Positions 15,762-44,502 of a DNA stretch of 64,000 bases are shown here, piece after piece. Positions within the stretch are counted from its first letter, which is position 1, and each line of letters opens with the position of its first letter. Where the stretch lies: positions 124,001 through 188,000 of the forward strand of contig JAHDKT010000013.1 of the NCBI GenBank assembly GCA_018436725.1. The letters are read 5' to 3'. The DNA is from Synergistaceae bacterium. Lineage in GTDB: Bacteria > Synergistota > Synergistia > Synergistales > Aminobacteriaceae. Position numbers and translations under genes: made by a program. The notes beneath the pieces were generated by a model. The model was not told the DNA's origin, did no database searches, and saw nothing but the letters and a program-made list of their open reading frames with translations.

Positions 15762-15948
15762 GAAAAACCTCCTTATGACATACCGGCACAACCGCCACAT
15801 CAAAAGAGGTGCGAACCAATTGATGTGACAGCGAACGCGACTTCCCCACCGCAAATCACGAATGATTTTTCGTCCCGGGGCAACGTCCCATCCCAGGGCA
15901 CTTCACGCGGGAAAACCTACTCTGCCTACCTTTGTTCGAAGCATTATA
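15762..15948 (-). promoter_or_regulatory. Long structured 5' leader of the FolT-like gene (possible riboswitch)
   Basis: A clear -10 TATAAT lies at 15948-15943 on the minus strand, so the mRNA leader is about 170 nt. It contains G-rich and C-rich blocks that can pair (around 15874-15898) and an exact 8-bp inverted repeat, 15796-15803 with 15820-15827, about 35 nt before the start codon. Vitamin S-component genes are often preceded by riboswitches. I could not fit the leader to the THF, TPP or cobalamin consensus, so the class is open. Nothing else is seen in the gap up to 16100 apart from the terminator at 16004-16044. Confidence 0.4.
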
Positions 15949-24682: not shown

Positions 24683-25034
24683 TGGTGGAGGCGGGGGGAA
24701 TCGAACCCCCGTCCGACAAGGGCCGGCCGTGAAAGCGCTACGGGCGTAGTTCCCGATTTATTGTCGGCTTGAAACTCCCGGGAACAGGATTTTCTCGCCC
24801 AAGCCTCCTTGTCTTTTTTCCGGAGCCGGAGACACTCCCCGAAAAGCATCCGCCTTTTTGTGTCGCCTTACGCAAAAACGGCGGCTACTTCTGCGTAAGA
24901 CGTGACTGCGTTAAGCAGCCAGTGCGTAATTGTTATTGTTGACGTTTGTTTTTGTGTCCGCGTTTAACGAGGTTCGGACGACCTCGGCCCGCTCTTCCAG
25001 ACCCTCCGTCTTGCCGTCGAAACCAGTCGCCCCC
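24683..25034 (-). ncRNA. ssrA: tmRNA (transfer-messenger RNA)
   Basis: 352 nt on the minus strand. The 5' end GGGGGCGACTGG pairs with the 3' end CGCCTCC-ACCA to make the acceptor stem, and GGGGTTCGA-type T-arm sequence is near the 3' end. The tag frame ends in Asn-rich sequence followed by Y-A-L-A-A and TAA (stop near 24914). The exact resume codon is not fixed from sequence alone. It rescues stalled ribosomes with SmpB. The 5' end is only 20 nt from the smpB stop, so it may be transcribed with smpB and then processed. Beyond the 3' end no clear terminator is seen. Confidence 0.95.
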
Positions 25035-25661: not shown

Positions 25662-25739
<78 letters not shown>

Positions 25740-37462: not shown

Positions 37463-37505
37463 ATCACCGGGGTATTTCACTGAAAATGCACGAGGAGGAA
37501 ATAAA

Positions 37506-38021
37506 ATGACCATGTCGACGAAGGCCTCCGTGAGTTCCGCTTTGGAGCAGCGACTTCTTCCAATAGCGGAGCGATACCGGGGAAGGAAGGGGATCACCAT
37601 ACCGCTTCTTGCGGATCTCCAGAGGGAGATGGGGTACATCGCTCCGGAAGCGGTGGATTATATCGCGCATGAGCTGGATATTCCGGCTGCGGAGATGTTC
37701 GGCGTCGCGACGTTTTACGCCATGTTCCGCCTCCAGCCGGAGGGAAAGCATGTGATCCGCCTTTGCCGGGGGACGGCATGTCACGTTCAGGGATCGGCGC
37801 GTATCGGGGAGCAGATTCAGCGGCATCTTTCGGTGACCGACGGCGGGACCACCTCCGACGGGGTGTTCACGCTGCAGTTCGTCGCCTGTCTGGGATGTTG
37901 CAGTCTGGCGCCGGTCATGATGGTGGACGAGGAAGTTTTCGGGCTGCTGACACCCGAAAAAGCCGTCGATGTCCTTGAATCCGTGCGCCGCGCCTCCTCT
38001 GGAAACGGCGCTGCGGACTAG
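37506..38021 (+). CDS. NuoE/HndA-type [2Fe-2S] subunit of an NADH-dependent electron-transfer complex
   Basis: 171-residue thioredoxin-like ferredoxin subunit, the 24 kDa complex I type. Cluster ligands are Cys87 and Cys92 (CRGTAC) with Cys128 and Cys132 (CLGCC), C-x4-C and C-x3-C as in NuoE and HndA. The N-terminal helical segment LADLQREMGYIAPEAVDYIAHEL is typical. GAGGAGG is 7 nt before ATG 37506. It opens a three-gene operon and would pass electrons between the flavin of the NuoF-like subunit and other clusters. Confidence 0.92.
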   Translation: MTMSTKASVSSALEQRLLPIAERYRGRKGITIPLLADLQREMGYIAPEAVDYIAHELDIPAAEMFGVATFYAMFRLQPEGKHVIRLCRGTACHVQGSARIGEQIQRHLSVTDGGTTSDGVFTLQFVACLGCCSLAPVMMVDEEVFGLLTPEKAVDVLESVRRASSGNGAAD

Positions 38022-38039
38022 CTCATGGAGGTGTGCAAG

Positions 38040-39806
38040 GTGACCAAAACTATCGTGAAGGTCGGTCTGGCGAGCTGCGGCGTTGCCGCCGGCGCCGTCC
38101 CGATATACGAAACGCTTCTCTCCGCTTTGAAAGGGCGCGACGATGTCGAGATAAAAAAAGTCGGCTGTATAGGACTCTGTTACATGGAGCCCATAGTGGA
38201 GATAGAGCGCGACGGAAAATCCATCGCCTACGGCAAGGTGGACACGGCGCTCGCAAAGGAGATCGCCGAATCGCACGCGGTTCGTGGAGAGATTGTCCAG
38301 AGGGCGGTGATCCTCGACCCCTCTTCCAAGGCGTGCGAGAACGAACGTATGGACAGTCAGGTGCGCATCGTACTGCGGAACAGCGGACTCATCGATCCGG
38401 AGAAGATCGACGAGTACGTCGCCCGCGACGGCTACGACGCGCTGAAGAAAGCGCTCTCCATGACGCCGGAACAGGTGATCGAAGAAGTCCTTGCCAGCGG
38501 CCTCCGAGGCCGCGGAGGGGCTGGATTTCCTACCGGGCTCAAATGGAAGTTCGCACGCGGCGCCAAGGGGGACAAGAAGTACTTCGTCTGTAATGCCGAC
38601 GAGGGCGATCCCGGCGCGTTCATGGACCGCTCCGTGCTCGAGAGCGACCCGCACAGCATCATCGAGGGCATGGCCATCGGCGGATACTCCATCGGTTCGG
38701 ACGAGGGAATCATCTACTGCCGGGCGGAGTACCCGCTCGCCATCAAGCACCTCAACGTCGCTCTCGAACAGGCGCGCGAAAAAGGGTACCTCGGGAAGAA
38801 CATCCTCGGATCGAATTTTTCGTTCGACATTCACATAAAAGAAGGCGCGGGCGCGTTCGTCTGCGGGGAAGAAACCGCAATGATCGCATCCATCGAAGGC
38901 CGGCGCGGCATGCCGCGTCCGAGACCTCCGTTCCCCGCGAACAGCGGAGTCTTCGGCAAGCCGACGAACATCAACAACGTGGAGACCATCGCCAATATCC
39001 CCTGGATCATCCTCAACGGCGCGGCGAAGTTCTCCGAATACGGAATCGGCAAGAGCCGGGGAACGAAGGTGTTCGCTCTCGCAGGAAAGATCAAGAAGGG
39101 CGGCCTCGCGGAGGTTCCGATGGGGATGCCGCTGCGCGAGGTCATCTTCAACGTGGCGGGCGGTATCGCGGAGAACAAGAAGTTCAAGGCCGTCCAGCTC
39201 GGAGGCCCCTCGGGCGGTTGTATTCCGGAATCGCTTCTCGACACTCCGGTGGACTATGAGTCCATCAACGCCACGGGGGCCATAATGGGCTCCGGGGGAA
39301 TGGTGGTCATGGACGAAACGACGTGCATCGTCGACGTCGCGAAGTTCTTCCTTGCTTTCGTCCAAAAGGAGTCCTGCGGAAAGTGTCCCTTCTGTCGCAT
39401 AGGCACGAAACGGATGCTTGAAATCCTTGAGCGCATCTCGGAGGGGAAGGGCGTCATGGAAGACCTCGATACGCTCCTCGACCTCGCCTACCAGGTCAAG
39501 GAGGGCTCTCTCTGCGGTCTCGGCCAGACGGCTCCGAATCCCGTCCTCACCACGCTGAAATACTTCCGCGAAGAGTACGAGACCCACATCAGGGAAAAGA
39601 AGTGCCCCGCGAAGGTCTGTACGAACCTCATCCACTACGTCATCGACCCCGCCGTGTGCATCGGCTGCACGAAGTGCGCCCGAAACTGCCCTGTCTCCTG
39701 TATCGCGGGAGAAGTAAAGAAGCCCCACGTCATCGACGATGAAAAGTGCATCCGGTGCGGCCAGTGCAAAAAGGTCTGCCCCGTGGGCGCCATTTCCGTG
39801 GAATAA
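38040..39806 (+). CDS. NuoF/HndC-type NADH-binding flavoprotein subunit
   Basis: 588-residue NADH-dehydrogenase subunit. An N-terminal thioredoxin-like region (Cys13, then GCIGLC near 43-47) matches HndC relatives. The FMN/NADH domain has SGLRGRGGAGFPTGLKW near residue 152 and YFVCNADEGDPGAFMDR near 185; the [4Fe-4S] site is ESCGKCPFCRIGTKR near 445, and two ferredoxin clusters are at the C-terminus (CIGCTKCARNCPVSC, CIRCGQCKKVCPVGA). GTG 38040 is preferred because GGAGG lies 8 nt ahead; an ATG at 38025 lacks a site. It follows the NuoE-like gene by 18 nt and is the NAD(H) input or output of the complex. Confidence 0.93.
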   Translation: MTKTIVKVGLASCGVAAGAVPIYETLLSALKGRDDVEIKKVGCIGLCYMEPIVEIERDGKSIAYGKVDTALAKEIAESHAVRGEIVQRAVILDPSSKACENERMDSQVRIVLRNSGLIDPEKIDEYVARDGYDALKKALSMTPEQVIEEVLASGLRGRGGAGFPTGLKWKFARGAKGDKKYFVCNADEGDPGAFMDRSVLESDPHSIIEGMAIGGYSIGSDEGIIYCRAEYPLAIKHLNVALEQAREKGYLGKNILGSNFSFDIHIKEGAGAFVCGEETAMIASIEGRRGMPRPRPPFPANSGVFGKPTNINNVETIANIPWIILNGAAKFSEYGIGKSRGTKVFALAGKIKKGGLAEVPMGMPLREVIFNVAGGIAENKKFKAVQLGGPSGGCIPESLLDTPVDYESINATGAIMGSGGMVVMDETTCIVDVAKFFLAFVQKESCGKCPFCRIGTKRMLEILERISEGKGVMEDLDTLLDLAYQVKEGSLCGLGQTAPNPVLTTLKYFREEYETHIREKKCPAKVCTNLIHYVIDPAVCIGCTKCARNCPVSCIAGEVKKPHVIDDEKCIRCGQCKKVCPVGAISVE

Positions 39807-39833
39807 GCCTTGTCGGGAGGATTTCGAGCTGCC

Positions 39834-42800
39834 ATGAAGAAAAATATAAAAGTCACACTCAATGGAAAAACAGTCTACGGTTACGAGGGCCAACGGATTC
39901 TCGACCTCTGCACCGAGTGCGGCGTGGAGATTCCCACGCTCTGCTACGATCCGCATCTCAGCCTGCACGGAGGCTGCTCCGTCTGCCTCGTCGAAGTCGA
40001 GGGCGCGAAGACGCTCCTGCGGGCATGCGCGAACACCATCTCGCAGGGGATGGTCATCAAGACGGAGACGGAACGGGCAGTCAGCGCGCGGCGGACCGCA
40101 CTCGAACTGCTTCTCTCGGACCACGTCGGCGACTGCCGCCCTCCGTGCACGCTCACCTGTCCCGCGAACGGCAACGTACAGGCCTATATCAACCTCGCCG
40201 CGCAGGGAAAGTACGACGAGTCACTCGACGTGCTGCACCACCATGTCACGCTCCCTGCGTGCATCGGCAGGGTCTGCCCCGCCCCTTGCGAGAAGAAGTG
40301 CCGCAGGAACTTCGTCGACGACGCCCCGGTTTCAATAAAAGAGATCAAACGCTTCGTCGGCGACTGGGCGATTCGCAACGAAAAGATGGGATTCGTTCCC
40401 AAGATCGAGGAAAACGGGAAGCGAATCGCCGTCGTGGGCGGAGGTCCCGCCGGTATTTCAGCGGCTTACTATCTCAGGTTGAAGGGGTATGCCCCGGTCG
40501 TCTTCGAGAAGGAGATGCTCCTCGGCGGCATGATGCGGTACGGAATTCCCGACTATCGTCTGCCGCAGCACGTGCTCCAGGCGGAGATCGACTGGCTGCT
40601 GTCGCACGGCGTGGAGGTCCGCACCGGAATGACCCTCGGTAAGAATATCGCCCTCGAAGAACTCCGAAAGGAGTACGACGGCGTGATTCTCGCCATGGGG
40701 TGCTGGAAATCCTCCCCCATGCGCGTCCCGGGAGAGGAGCTTGACGGCGTCCTTGGGGGCATCGATTTCCTGTACGATGTGAAGACGAACCCCTCCGTCG
40801 CGATCGGCAAGAGAGTCGCGGTCGTCGGCGGCGGAAATACCGCGATGGACGCATGCCGCTCCGCCCGACGCCTGGGCGCGGAGGAGGTCTCCGTGCTCTA
40901 CCGACGCTCGCGCGAGGAGATGCCGGCGGACGACATCGAAATTGAAGAGGCTACTGAAGAAGGAGTCGATTTTATCTATCTCGCCGCGCCGAAGACAATC
41001 GAAGGAAACGGCAAAGTCGAGCGTATCGTCTGCGAACGGATGCGACTCGGCGAACCCGACGCCTCCGGCAGACGGAGCCCCGTCCCCACGGGAGAGACGT
41101 TTGTCCTTGAAGTCGACACCGTCATCGCGGCGGTCGGCCAGGGAATCGACTTCTCCACCGTTCCCGCCGAGCTGCACGACGGCAGAAAAATGAAAGTGGG
41201 CAAGGACTATGAAACGCCGCTTCCCGGCGTCTTCGTCTGCGGCGACCAGCAGACGGGACCCAAGATCGCCATCGAGGCGATCGGCAACGGGCACTGGGCC
41301 GCGGATTCTCTGGACCACTATCTGACGCACGGAACGCCCAAAAAACCGTTCTTCTACGATATCGTCCGGACGGACCTCGGCCCCGAGGACTTCGCCGACG
41401 TCGAACGCACAACGCAGGAGCACGTGGCGCACGTTTCCGGAGAGACGCGGCTGGCCGCTCCCTTCAATGAGTACAGCAAAGGACTGACCGAAGAGCAAAC
41501 CCTCCGCGACGCGAAGCGCTGTATGGAGTGCGGCTGCGCCGACGTCTTCGAATGCAAGCTCCGTAAATTCGCGACTACGCACGAAGTGCAGCCCGAGAAG
41601 CTGGCGGGCGCCCACGTCGAAAAGTTCGAGGACGCCAACCAGTACTACGTGCGGAACATGGACAAGTGCGTCCTCTGCGCGAAGTGCGTCCGCGCGTGCG
41701 ACGAAATCTCCGGTTTCCACGCCATCGACTTCGCGAAGCGTGGCTTCGAGTCCGTACTCACACCGCACTTCTTCAACGACATGGAACACTCCGACTGCAC
41801 TTTCTGCGGCCTCTGCACCCAGGTCTGCCCGGTCGGGGCCCTTATGGAGAAACGCGCCGAACGTTGGCCGCATCTGGAAGAGCCGCGGATCGTCAAGACA
41901 ACATGTATGCTCTGCCCGGTAGGCTGCGAACTCGACCTGAATCTCGACAGGAAGCGTTCGCGAATTGTCCGCGTTACTACCGATCTCGACAACCCCGAGG
42001 CCCCGACCGGCGGTTCGTGCTGTGTGAAGGGGCGCTACGGCTTTAAAGACGTAGCGGACGACGGCGCCTTCGTCCCCGCGCTCAAGGGAAACTCCGCCTC
42101 CTGGAGCGACGCCGTCGCGGCTTTCGACGCGCTCGCAGCCGGGAACGACGCGGCGTTCGTGCTTGGCCCGTCCCTCACATCCGAAGAAGTGCGCGCTCTT
42201 AAGGGGTACGCCGCCCTTCGCGCTCCGGACGCACGGATGTCCGCGACTTGCGATGCGGAGTTCATTCCTCTTCTCGATGAGGCGGCGCGTCGCAAGGATG
42301 TTGTCGGAGCAACCTACGCCTCCATGACCGGCTCCTCTCCGGCAAGCGATATACGCTGCGGAGAGGCCGACGCGTACCTGCTCGTCCGAACGAACACCGA
42401 CGACGACCAGCCGGTGCTCACATCCTGGCTCCGCAGGTCCGCTCGTCACCGTAAGGCAGCGGTGGTCTACATCGGCCAGACGCCGGGCCTCCTCGACAAA
42501 GGCGAAGCCGTCGTTCTGCGCCCGGAACACGGAAAATACGGCCAGGTCCTTGCTGCGCTCACTTCCGTAGTCAGGGCGCTCACGGCCAAGGAGAGCGTCG
42601 CCTCGGCCGGTCTCCTCTCCGGTACCGGCGTTCTTCCCGAAGACCTTGAAAAAGCGGCCGGACTCCTCGCCGCCGCGAAACATCCTGTGACCCTTATCGG
42701 CGCGGAGTCGCCCGCTAAAGAAGCCTTCGACGCCGCGGCGTCGCTCGCCGGAGGACGCTACCTTCTTCTCTTCAAGGGAGCCGGGAGCACCGCCCTCCTT

Positions 42801-43160
42801 GAGGCAATGCCCGGAGTCATACCAGCGGCGGCTCTTCGTACGATTCAGGGGAGCGCGTCTGTACTGCTCTTCGTCGGAACAACCCCGGAGAAAGCCGCTT
42901 TTGCTGCTCCCGAACTGGCCGGGAAGAAGTACGCGGTCCTGTCGTCGGCATCCTCTCCACTCTCGGAGAAGGCCGACGTTCTGCTGCCGCTTCTTCCCTG
43001 GACCGAGAAAGACGGAACGCTGAAAAATCTCGAAGGCCGCACGCTTCCAGTCCGGCGAGGCTCTCTGAACGCAAAAACAGGGAAGAGCCTGTGCGCCCTG
43101 CTGGCGGAGGCCGCATTGCCCTACGGAGGAAAGATCCACGCGAACCCTGTAGCTCGCTGA
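39834..43160 (+). CDS. Giant iron-sulfur flavoprotein: NuoG-type ferredoxin + GltD/NfnB-like core + truncated formate-dehydrogenase-like tail
   Basis: 1108 residues. Residues 1-75: complex-I-type [2Fe-2S] domain (Cys37, 48, 51, 65). Residues 95-160: Cys-rich helical domain of glutamate-synthase small subunits (Cys101, 105, 109, 143, 148, 152, 156). Residues 195-520: GltD/NfnB-like flavoprotein with FAD motif VVGGGPAGIS, NAD(P) motif VAVVGGGNTAMDA near 330 and closing FAD segment FVCGDQQTGPKIA. Residues 560-670: further Cys clusters including KCVLCAKCVRAC and CTFCGLCTQVCP. Near 690-730: molybdopterin-oxidoreductase Fe4S4 motif CMLCPVGC with distal GGSCC. The last 370 residues are a short molybdopterin-like domain lacking recognisable Cys/SeCys ligand. 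No H-cluster motifs. Probably an electron-bifurcating or transhydrogenase component with the two genes upstream; substrate unproven. Confidence 0.85.
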   Translation: MKKNIKVTLNGKTVYGYEGQRILDLCTECGVEIPTLCYDPHLSLHGGCSVCLVEVEGAKTLLRACANTISQGMVIKTETERAVSARRTALELLLSDHVGDCRPPCTLTCPANGNVQAYINLAAQGKYDESLDVLHHHVTLPACIGRVCPAPCEKKCRRNFVDDAPVSIKEIKRFVGDWAIRNEKMGFVPKIEENGKRIAVVGGGPAGISAAYYLRLKGYAPVVFEKEMLLGGMMRYGIPDYRLPQHVLQAEIDWLLSHGVEVRTGMTLGKNIALEELRKEYDGVILAMGCWKSSPMRVPGEELDGVLGGIDFLYDVKTNPSVAIGKRVAVVGGGNTAMDACRSARRLGAEEVSVLYRRSREEMPADDIEIEEATEEGVDFIYLAAPKTIEGNGKVERIVCERMRLGEPDASGRRSPVPTGETFVLEVDTVIAAVGQGIDFSTVPAELHDGRKMKVGKDYETPLPGVFVCGDQQTGPKIAIEAIGNGHWAADSLDHYLTHGTPKKPFFYDIVRTDLGPEDFADVERTTQEHVAHVSGETRLAAPFNEYSKGLTEEQTLRDAKRCMECGCADVFECKLRKFATTHEVQPEKLAGAHVEKFEDANQYYVRNMDKCVLCAKCVRACDEISGFHAIDFAKRGFESVLTPHFFNDMEHSDCTFCGLCTQVCPVGALMEKRAERWPHLEEPRIVKTTCMLCPVGCELDLNLDRKRSRIVRVTTDLDNPEAPTGGSCCVKGRYGFKDVADDGAFVPALKGNSASWSDAVAAFDALAAGNDAAFVLGPSLTSEEVRALKGYAALRAPDARMSATCDAEFIPLLDEAARRKDVVGATYASMTGSSPASDIRCGEADAYLLVRTNTDDDQPVLTSWLRRSARHRKAAVVYIGQTPGLLDKGEAVVLRPEHGKYGQVLAALTSVVRALTAKESVASAGLLSGTGVLPEDLEKAAGLLAAAKHPVTLIGAESPAKEAFDAAASLAGGRYLLLFKGAGSTALLEAMPGVIPAAALRTIQGSASVLLFVGTTPEKAAFAAPELAGKKYAVLSSASSPLSEKADVLLPLLPWTEKDGTLKNLEGRTLPVRRGSLNAKTGKSLCALLAEAALPYGGKIHANPVAR

Positions 43161-43246: not shown

Positions 43247-43275
43247 TTGACATTCAGGATACTGGCCTTTAGAAT
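43247..43275 (+). promoter_or_regulatory. Sigma-70-type promoter of the LivJ-like gene
   Basis: TTGACA at 43247-43252, 17-nt spacer, TAGAAT at 43270-43275. Transcription would begin near 43282, 39 nt before the start codon at 43321. Confidence 0.75.
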
Positions 43276-43320: not shown

Positions 43321-44502
43321 ATGAGGAGAATGCATCTTGGCACAGCTTTCATCATCGTCTTCGCGCTGATTCTGCTCTCCGCCGCCACGTCGTTCGCCGC
43401 GGCCCCTTCAGGAGAACCGATCAAAATCGGTTATCTGGCAACGCTCACGGGCGACGGTTCCACGTGGGGGCAGCATGAACGGGACGGAGCGCTGCTCGCG
43501 GTCAAAGAGTTGAACGAGGCCGGAGGAGTGCTCGGACGTCCGCTCGAACTTGTGTACTACGATGTTCGGGGACGTCAGGAAGACGCCATCCAGGCGGCCC
43601 GCCGCCTTGTCCACGAGGACAAGGTAGTCGCCATAGGTGGAACGAACTATAGCGGTTTGAATATCGCCATCGCCTCCGTGGTGAACAACGGCCAGGTACC
43701 CCAGATCGGCACGGCGAGCACCAACCCGGCTGTTACAGTCGACCCGAGAACGAACACCGTCCGCCCGTACACGTTCCGCCTCTGCTACACCGATCCCTAT
43801 CAGGGAAAGGTCATGGCGGACTACCTCGTCAACAAGCTCGGTGTGAAGAGCGCTGCGGTCATCACGGATATCGGCAGCGACTATTCCGAAGGACTCAAGG
43901 AATTTTTCGTCGCCCGCTTCGGCGAGCTTGACGGCGAGCTGAAGGGCGTCTGGGGGTTCCGCGGCGGCGACGTCGACTTCAGGGCCCAGCTTACGGAGAT
44001 GAAAGCCTCCGGGGCCGAGGCGGTTGCGCTTCCTATTCTCTATAAAGAGATGGGTCTGATCATGAAGCAAGCCGCCGAACTCGACTGGAAGCCAATCTTC
44101 ATCGGCGGCGACGGTTTCAGCCCGAGTATGTACGAAATCGCCGGCGATAGTATGGAAGGAAGCTACTGGGTCTACAGCATGGACCTCAGTAACCCGCAGC
44201 TAATCTACCTTCTTTCCCGCTTCGAGAAGGAGTACGGCATTCCTGCGGCGGAGCCCGGCAACGTAGCATACGCCTACGACTTGATCACATGGGTGGCCGA
44301 CGCGATCAGAAAAACCGGTAAGGCCGATCCTGTGGCGATCCGGGAGGCGCTCGAGAACACGAAGGATCTTCGCCTTGTCCATTTCACGCTTACAGTCGAC
44401 AAGGAAACACACAATCCGCTGAACAAGCCTGCGGCTATGATGCTCTGGAAGAACCAGCAGCTCAACTTCCTTGAGATGTGGGCGCCTCAGGACAACTTCT
44501 AA
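43321..44502 (+). CDS. ABC transporter substrate-binding protein, branched-chain amino acid (LivJ) type
   Basis: 393-residue periplasmic binding protein of the Peripla_BP_6 fold. A signal peptide of about 27 residues ends at FAAAPS, and the mature protein starts PIKIGYLATLTGDGSTWGQHERDGALLAVKELNEAGG, the LivJ pattern. Later IGGTNYSGLNIAIASVVN and GVKSAAVITDIGSDYSEG lobes are typical. It would capture Leu, Ile, Val or other amino acids for an ABC importer; the permease and ATPase genes are not in this window, so it is an orphan here. AGGGAGG lies before ATG 43321, and a strong promoter and terminator flank it. Confidence 0.93.
   Translation: MRRMHLGTAFIIVFALILLSAATSFAAAPSGEPIKIGYLATLTGDGSTWGQHERDGALLAVKELNEAGGVLGRPLELVYYDVRGRQEDAIQAARRLVHEDKVVAIGGTNYSGLNIAIASVVNNGQVPQIGTASTNPAVTVDPRTNTVRPYTFRLCYTDPYQGKVMADYLVNKLGVKSAAVITDIGSDYSEGLKEFFVARFGELDGELKGVWGFRGGDVDFRAQLTEMKASGAEAVALPILYKEMGLIMKQAAELDWKPIFIGGDGFSPSMYEIAGDSMEGSYWVYSMDLSNPQLIYLLSRFEKEYGIPAAEPGNVAYAYDLITWVADAIRKTGKADPVAIREALENTKDLRLVHFTLTVDKETHNPLNKPAAMMLWKNQQLNFLEMWAPQDNF

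Follow-up and report, generated by a model that had tools for sequence, protein, structure and literature searches.

A Sporomusa-type Nfn (Stn) operon with a predicted dead formate dehydrogenase-like tail in a Synergistaceae genome

Identification of the operon

The window analysed here is a 64,000-nucleotide stretch of DNA from a Synergistaceae bacterium (assembly GCA_018436725.1, contig JAHDKT010000013.1, positions 124,001 to 188,000). Between its positions 37506 and 43160 lie three contiguous plus-strand open reading frames (ORFs) of 171, 593 and 1108 residues, separated by 3 nt (stnA-stnB) and 27 nt (stnB-stnC; Table 1). The operon belongs to an already published family, the Sporomusa-type Nfn or “Stn” (also called Nfn-Bfu or NfnABC). 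We hold with high confidence that it encodes a member predicted to act as an NADPH:NAD+/ferredoxin transhydrogenase, bifurcating at the FMN of the NuoE/NuoF-like pair, whose large subunit includes a formate dehydrogenase (FDH)-like domain without active-site residues. Such an enzyme likely balances the NADPH, NADH and ferredoxin pools of the cell.

The original prediction had described a three-gene operon in which NuoE- and NuoF-type subunits precede a NuoG-GltD-FDH-like fusion, and both the gene layout and the domain order were borne out. NCBIfam and Pfam profiles place NuoE-like, NuoF-like and [2Fe-2S]-GltD-[4Fe-4S]-molybdopterin-like proteins in the operon: StnA matches 2Fe-2S_thioredx; StnB matches Complex1_51K, NADH_4Fe-4S and C-terminal Fer4-type domains; and StnC carries, in order, Fer2_4, Fer4_20, Pyr_redox_2, Fer4_7 and Molybdop_Fe4S4, with a weak hit to part of the Molybdopterin profile at the end. 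The H-cluster domain Fe_hyd_lg_C (PF02906) had no match in StnC at E<=0.001, in agreement with the earlier reading that hydrogenase motifs are missing, and this sets the protein apart from the [FeFe]-HydABC type.

That reading had also presented the pairing of NuoE/F modules with an NfnB-like flavoprotein as a departure from the usual; the arrangement is already in print. Kremp et al. (2020), who purified the S. ovata enzyme, named potential Stn clusters from Firmicutes, Proteobacteria and Synergistetes, including those of Acetomicrobium mobile (Anamo_1498, 1071 residues) and Thermovirga lienii (Tlie_1249, 1241 residues; their Table 1; PMC7483475). Schut et al. (2022) likewise include Synergistetes among the hosts of the Type 1 Nfn-Bfu class (PMC9304861).

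In the PDB, the best three matches of StnC are the large chains of NfnABC from Caldicellulosiruptor, of StnABC from S. ovata and of NfnABC from T. sibiricus, and those of StnB are the partner chains in these complexes. A survey of Synergistota, which the original prediction had proposed, found a StnC match at E<=1e-100 in at least 55 of 185 genomes, a lower bound in that few candidates were scored per genome. With an E-value of 2.5e-210 to a solved homologue and this spread through the phylum, the domain order of StnC is far beyond chance. An AlphaFold model of the 1108-residue chain, built from a 60-row alignment, has a predicted local distance difference test (pLDDT) score of 89.8 and a predicted template modelling (pTM) score of 0.84. 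The modelled fold matches entire solved StnC-type chains, tail included; with S. ovata StnC the superposition extends across 1045 residues.

Cofactor sites and proposed electron path

The six [4Fe-4S] clusters and one [2Fe-2S] cluster of the S. ovata structure require 28 ligands. An alignment of the two StnC sequences finds 27 cysteines in common, or 26 once Cys400 is set aside, and these 26 together with His97 and Lys172 make up the full set, all aligned in the window’s StnC. Lys172 corresponds to S. ovata Lys170, a ligand of cluster C7 reported to be strictly conserved among StnC proteins (PMC10482914).

Judged by its residues, the bifurcating BfuBC core appears to be in place as well: StnA has its [2Fe-2S] site, and StnB has an FMN/NAD site, a [4Fe-4S] motif (ESCGKCPFCRIGT), the His521/Cys527/Cys532 motif of the unusual [2Fe-2S] cluster B2 and, at its C-terminus, a pair of [4Fe-4S] motifs (545, 575) for ferredoxin, the roles of B2 and the C-terminal clusters being those given in PMC9304861 and PMC10482914.

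Transhydrogenation between NADPH, NADH and ferredoxin has been reported for the S. ovata and Thermococcus sibiricus homologues (PMC7483475, PMC10482914, PMC9304861), which supports the original proposal of a possibly bifurcating transhydrogenase. What needs correcting is the flavin: Kumar et al. (2023), who solved the S. ovata structure, place bifurcation at the FMN/[2Fe-2S] site of StnAB and hold the NfnB-like FAD to be non-bifurcating (PMC10482914).

The presence and order of the modules and the aligned ligand positions are direct observations; the path itself is drawn from the S. ovata structure. NADPH would reduce the FAD in the GltD-like core of StnC, from which single electrons would pass over the Lys-ligated [4Fe-4S] cluster and the NuoG-like clusters to the FMN in StnB. 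From the FMN, NAD+ would receive a hydride, and single electrons would travel over the StnA [2Fe-2S] cluster and, by the swing of a domain, reach the two C-terminal [4Fe-4S] clusters of StnB and finally ferredoxin. The reaction would be reversible, and its main cellular direction may be from NADH and reduced ferredoxin to NADPH.

The modules could also serve an Nso-like, non-bifurcating NADPH:NAD+ or NADPH:sulfur oxidoreductase in which the ferredoxin site stays idle; NsoABC of Thermococcus litoralis has the same modules, and its NsoC is 40.6% identical to S. ovata StnC (PMC7483475). We consider this improbable: StnB keeps the C-terminal dicluster and the B2 His/Cys motif, which are described as absent from non-bifurcating homologues, and archaeal Nfn-Bfu is reported to bifurcate (PMC9304861).

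Four observations weigh against our assignment to a bifurcating Stn. Cys114 of S. ovata, whose C114A variant loses half of the activity, is replaced by Val115 in the window’s StnC; Val or Ile at this position was already known from two homologues (PMC10482914). StnA has as its best PDB match not a Stn chain but HydC of the hydrogenase NiFe-HydABCSL, the NfnABC/Stn partners following at ranks 2 to 4, and StnA alone would not be decisive. The other two come from trees, all of them quick searches with Shimodaira-Hasegawa-like approximate likelihood ratio test (SH-aLRT) support only, no bootstrap, and S. ovata StnC outside them. For StnC residues 1-590, an approximately unbiased (AU) test weakly rejects the Stn rows as one clade apart from the GltD-FDH rows (p 0.027), and in the tree of this region P0136, a row with a living FDH motif, groups with three non-Synergistota Stn rows. 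By these two results, the Stn proteins do not form a neat clade, even when their core alone is considered.

The FDH-like tail

In the 60-row alignment, which is loose in the tail region, the column of the FDH Cys/selenocysteine (Sec) is occupied by Glu809. Eight of the 60 rows have Cys in this column, and only P0108 and P0110, both with complete FDH tails, have the His directly after it. The Pfam scan did not find a PF01568 domain in the window’s StnC. The tail is predicted to be an FDH fold that is catalytically dead and, given Glu809 and the restriction of the adjacent His to P0108 and P0110, is not expected to carry electrons. The protein would also fall outside the Fdh-Bfu class, which is defined by a Cys/Sec-His active site and PF01568. 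Cys806 was considered as a hidden metal ligand and rejected: P0001, at 93% identity, has Ser there, and none of the remaining rows among the 60 has Cys at that position; the tail indeed has no visible metal ligand, as first described. Neither a catalytic Cys/Sec in the tail nor, among the seven neighbouring ORFs, a separate hydrogenase partner was found in the window.

The FdhF domain of S. ovata is described as inactive and yet required for functional assembly, and no active complex could be purified once it had been deleted (PMC10482914). The role of the window’s tail would be in assembly and stability only. That StnC might instead be an NADPH-linked FDH with a cryptic active site is very hard to reconcile with Glu809, the missing His and PF01568, and a separate FdhA with an in-frame TGA at its Sec site in the same genome.

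Redox genes of the host genome

The assembly that contains the window on its contig C58 (G000) measures 4.78 Mb in 127 contigs, with 99.45% completeness and 7.07% contamination. The listed genomes of the same family measure 1.7-3.3 Mb, and a single PF10418 locus occurs as near-identical copies (L057 and L058) on two contigs; the bin may be a mixture of two strains.

Besides stnB, this genome has three PF01512 loci. One consists of an RnfC-type gene with an NQR2/RnfD-type protein encoded after it; a second holds a NuoE/NuoF/NuoG-like set with a large protein of 727 residues; and in the third a 597-residue NuoF-type gene precedes two pieces of an FDH, which share one frame through a TGA at DHCAHL-U-HSATV and presumably make up a stand-alone FdhA with Sec. 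SelB and tRNA-Sec matches exceeded their cut-offs. Given this separate Sec-type FdhA and the matches to the Sec machinery, formate chemistry is probably handled elsewhere in the genome, which is consistent with a dead StnC tail.

NuoE/F modules often serve hydrogenases or FDHs, and stnABC might be the electron-input arm of such a partner encoded elsewhere: the further NuoF-type operons include the one adjoining the 727-residue NuoG-like gene and the one adjoining the Sec-FdhA. These operons, however, carry their own NuoF, StnC provides a full third-substrate module, and the search of the genome for PF02906 found a single locus, on another contig than stnABC, with no hydrogenase among the seven ORFs around the operon. 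We regard this arrangement as highly unlikely.

In a search for classical NfnAB, three PF10418 loci were found. No GltD-core match lies within the short loci L057-L059 (1.9-3.1 kb each, L059 near a contig end), a result that holds for these stretches and does not establish that NfnAB is absent genome-wide. The analysis places a published bifurcating transhydrogenase in a genome where Rnf-type genes and a Sec-FdhA of its own are also present, an aid in predicting how this genome balances NADPH, NADH and ferredoxin.

Relatives with complete FDH tails

The window operon is ordinary in kind; it is its relatives with complete tails that raise interest. Among 18 related loci in named genomes, four from Synergistaceae/Synergistales metagenome-assembled genomes are 70-89% identical (one covering residues 1-670 only) and 14 from other groups 28-39%, a pattern that points to Synergistota as the phylum of the window. 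StnC is about 1100 residues long in the window’s group, 958-1034 in stub forms, of which the 11 sampled rows form one clade, and 1241-1367 in f10, another family of the same phylum. The f10 family is probably the Thermovirga group, since its 1241-residue form equals the printed length of T. lienii Tlie_1249.

All nine f10 genomes with a StnC match were read. In six, the codon of residue 824 is an in-frame TGA, within DHCAHL-U-HS(P/A)TVAGLGETLGS (L060-L064 and L067; genomes G182, G178, G184, G183, G176 and G177), two of them (G183 and G177) cut by contig ends; one, L068, has Cys at the Sec site (DHCARLCH); and two, of 1241 and 1243 residues, read VDSTYYMP and VDSIYYTP and look dead. SelB exceeded its cut-off in every one of the 13 genomes searched, and tRNA-Sec did so in 10 of these 13, the misses being G040, G181 and G182, the last of which has a TGA form and is 80% complete. 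The StnB of f10 keeps the B2 motif and the C-terminal dicluster in the eight loci examined of nine. From their sequences, the f10 enzymes with complete tails are predicted to couple formate too. In the f10 genomes, several of them incomplete, an FdhA search at E<=1e-60 returned, besides StnC, only matches of 34-36% identity and a 352-residue fragment in G183.

In all six Sec forms, and in the window genome’s own FdhA, the TGA has on its 3' side a conserved hairpin (GGGTCTC-GGC-GAGACCC) that begins 20 nt from the T; the same region of the Cys form L068 folds differently. Rfam gave nothing at gathering level in the four Sec loci submitted, out of six. The hairpin is a weak candidate for a selenocysteine insertion sequence, the stretch being conserved coding sequence too.

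Two types of NuoE/NuoF pair stand beside StnC: one about 74-76% identical to the window’s StnB (L061, L062, L064, L067 and L007), the other about 65-67% identical and with an upstream stretch resembling the StnB N-terminal thioredoxin domain (L060, L063, L065 and L066). This suggests that the bifurcating module has been exchanged under the same StnC.

Two relatives from the database, P0108 and P0110, carry Cys at the Sec site and have both PF00384 and PF01568 complete. Five others (P0102, P0105-P0107 and P0109) are each exactly 823 residues long, probably TGA-form genes cut at the TGA by gene callers. Nor is f10 alone in combining the StnC domain order with a living FDH motif. The 120 best matches listed for P0110 include 95 further proteins (P0121-P0215), and DHCARLCH is present in 91 of these, Vibrio, Shewanella and Aeromonas proteins named formate dehydrogenase subunit alpha being among them. 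The 95 proteins are 1299-1463 residues long and have the same GltD insertion. Those sampled are scattered over several places of the tail tree, hinting at repeated fusion. In open-licence papers, surveyed mostly through listings and the beginnings of abstracts, we found no description of a StnC with a living or Sec-containing FDH tail; supplementary tables were outside this scope, and the clade lists of Schut et al. may hold such proteins.

History of the tail

The core of the f10 proteins (residues 1-690) falls inside a 58-row StnC clade (support 100) with the window and rows named Synergistota and Bipolaricaulota. In a first tail tree, from which dead tails of the window’s kind were left out (as were rows P0191, L104 and L096), the f10 tails fall inside a clade of stand-alone Synergistota FdhA (21 rows, support 100). 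Five of these tails are 63-65% identical to the window genome’s own FdhA, and identity switches near StnC residue 600-630. Despite that tree and the identity switch, a re-graft of a living tail in f10 was not upheld as a fact: when dead tails were added (P0043 dropped), the tree that unites all Synergistota StnC tails in one clade was 24 log-likelihood units better than the free tree and not rejected (AU p-value 0.838), long branches being flagged.

In a tree of the dicluster/Mo-Fe4S4 region, over the 145 columns that could be aligned throughout (rows P0043, P0129, P0132, P0166 and P0201 dropped), living and dead Synergistota StnC form one clade (support 95), grouped with Synergistota FdhA (41 rows, support 94), and the best tree places them apart from three other Stn rows labelled Firmicutes (P0117 from Fervidicola, P0118 and P0120). 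Here neither a clade of f10 with FdhA (p 0.556), nor one of all Stn (p 0.061), nor one of the dead rows without f10 (p 0.238) was rejected; with the latter two values, a separate origin of the dead tails in Synergistota and in the three other rows is not shown.

The trees are read most simply as a single fusion with a local FdhA and repeated death of the tail thereafter; the alternative to one ancient fusion is that f10 acquired its living tail later, by re-graft. We see even chances that the window enzyme is what is left of a burnt-out four-way enzyme: the f10 complex, with a Sec-FDH on the NADPH/FAD chain over StnAB, would couple formate/CO2, NADPH, NADH and ferredoxin, and its FDH half would derive from the phylum’s own Sec-FdhA, having died separately in the window’s and the Thermovirga-type lines and become a stub in others. 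If true, a single protein family would display all the stages by which a catalytic domain passes from a working enzyme to a scaffold. Since their FDH tails range from intact through damaged to dead within one phylum, StnC proteins would allow tests of how a redox enzyme undergoes this change, and of whether a Stn complex can accept formate.

Features of the operon and its surroundings

Stretches of AGGAGG/GGGAGG precede stnA and stnC, that of stnC lying 13 nt before the ATG, rather far. Seven flanking ORFs were scanned: upstream, a PP-loop protein, a PPDK_N-type protein, phosphoglucose isomerase and glutaredoxin; downstream, a periplasmic binding protein, a fumarate-reductase-type flavoprotein and an EF-G-type protein. 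No FDH or NfnA is among them. A promoter-like site (11/12) at 43247-43275 (+), in the gap that separates stnC from the gene of the periplasmic binding protein (at 43321), suggests that the latter is a transcription unit apart from stnC. Elsewhere the window holds a tetrahydrofolate riboswitch (15827-15926, minus strand, 78.3 bits), a transfer-messenger RNA (24683-25034, minus strand) and a tRNA gene (25665-25739, minus strand).

Table 1 Features of the stn operon in window coordinates, with the stand-alone FdhA of the same genome.
Feature	Position	Strand	Description
Shine-Dalgarno-like AGGAGG of stnA	37493..37498	+
stnA	37506..38021	+	171-residue NuoE/HydC-like subunit; Cys87/92 and Cys128/131 fit a thioredoxin-type [2Fe-2S]
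stnB	38025..39806	+	593-residue NuoF/HydB-like subunit
stnC	39834 (ATG)..43160	+	1108-residue fusion: [2Fe-2S], GltD/NfnB-like FAD/NADPH core, [4Fe-4S] dicluster, FDH-like tail (predicted dead)
StnC 3-79	39840..40070	+	Fer2_4 [2Fe-2S] domain (Cys37/48/51/65)
StnC 100-500	40131..41333	+	GltD/NfnB-like FAD and NADP(H) core; GGGPAG (202), GGGNTA (332)
StnC Val115	40176..40178	+	position of S. ovata Cys114
StnC Lys172	40347..40349	+	S. ovata Lys170, cluster C7 ligand
StnC Arg242	40557..40559	+	S. ovata Arg239, near FAD
StnC 606-675	41649..41858	+	ferredoxin-like [4Fe-4S] dicluster
StnC 686-740	41889..42053	+	Molybdop_Fe4S4 cluster (Cys691/694/698/730)
StnC 741-1108	42054..43157	+	degenerate FDH-like tail without PF01568 domain
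StnC Glu809	42258..42260	+	aligned with the FDH Cys/Sec active-site position
Stand-alone FdhA	L025:10454-13162 (G000 C102:40453-43158)		in-frame TGA at Sec site

Comparison with known systems

NfnAB has a separate, DHODB-type NfnA subunit beside NfnB, which is not encoded in the seven ORFs neighbouring the window operon. The Type 1 Fdh-Bfu enzymes (e.g. of Carboxydothermus) and the stand-alone Synergistota FdhA share with StnC a NuoG-like part and an FDH on a BfuBC core, but have no GltD/NADPH module and keep the FDH active site. Of the Stn proteins, those of A. mobile and T. lienii come from the same phylum as the window’s, belong to the same enzyme family and are potential members predicted from sequence only. 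T. sibiricus Nfn-Bfu (9N5U/9N5V) is a Type 1 Bfu enzyme with the same modules, but is shorter (963 residues in the entry) and described as lacking the A4 cluster cysteines (PMC9304861). Caldicellulosiruptor saccharolyticus NfnABC (9BOV/9BP5) is the best structural and sequence match to the window’s StnC; its large subunit, compared by database entries only, has 1178 residues. S. ovata StnABC (8OH5/8OH9) differs in the length of StnC (1172 against 1108 residues) and in Cys114 against Val115, and shares with the window operon the NuoE-NuoF-fusion subunits, the domain order, the 28 ligand positions, Lys170 and Arg239, the inactive FdhF-like tail and, in the model, the fold.

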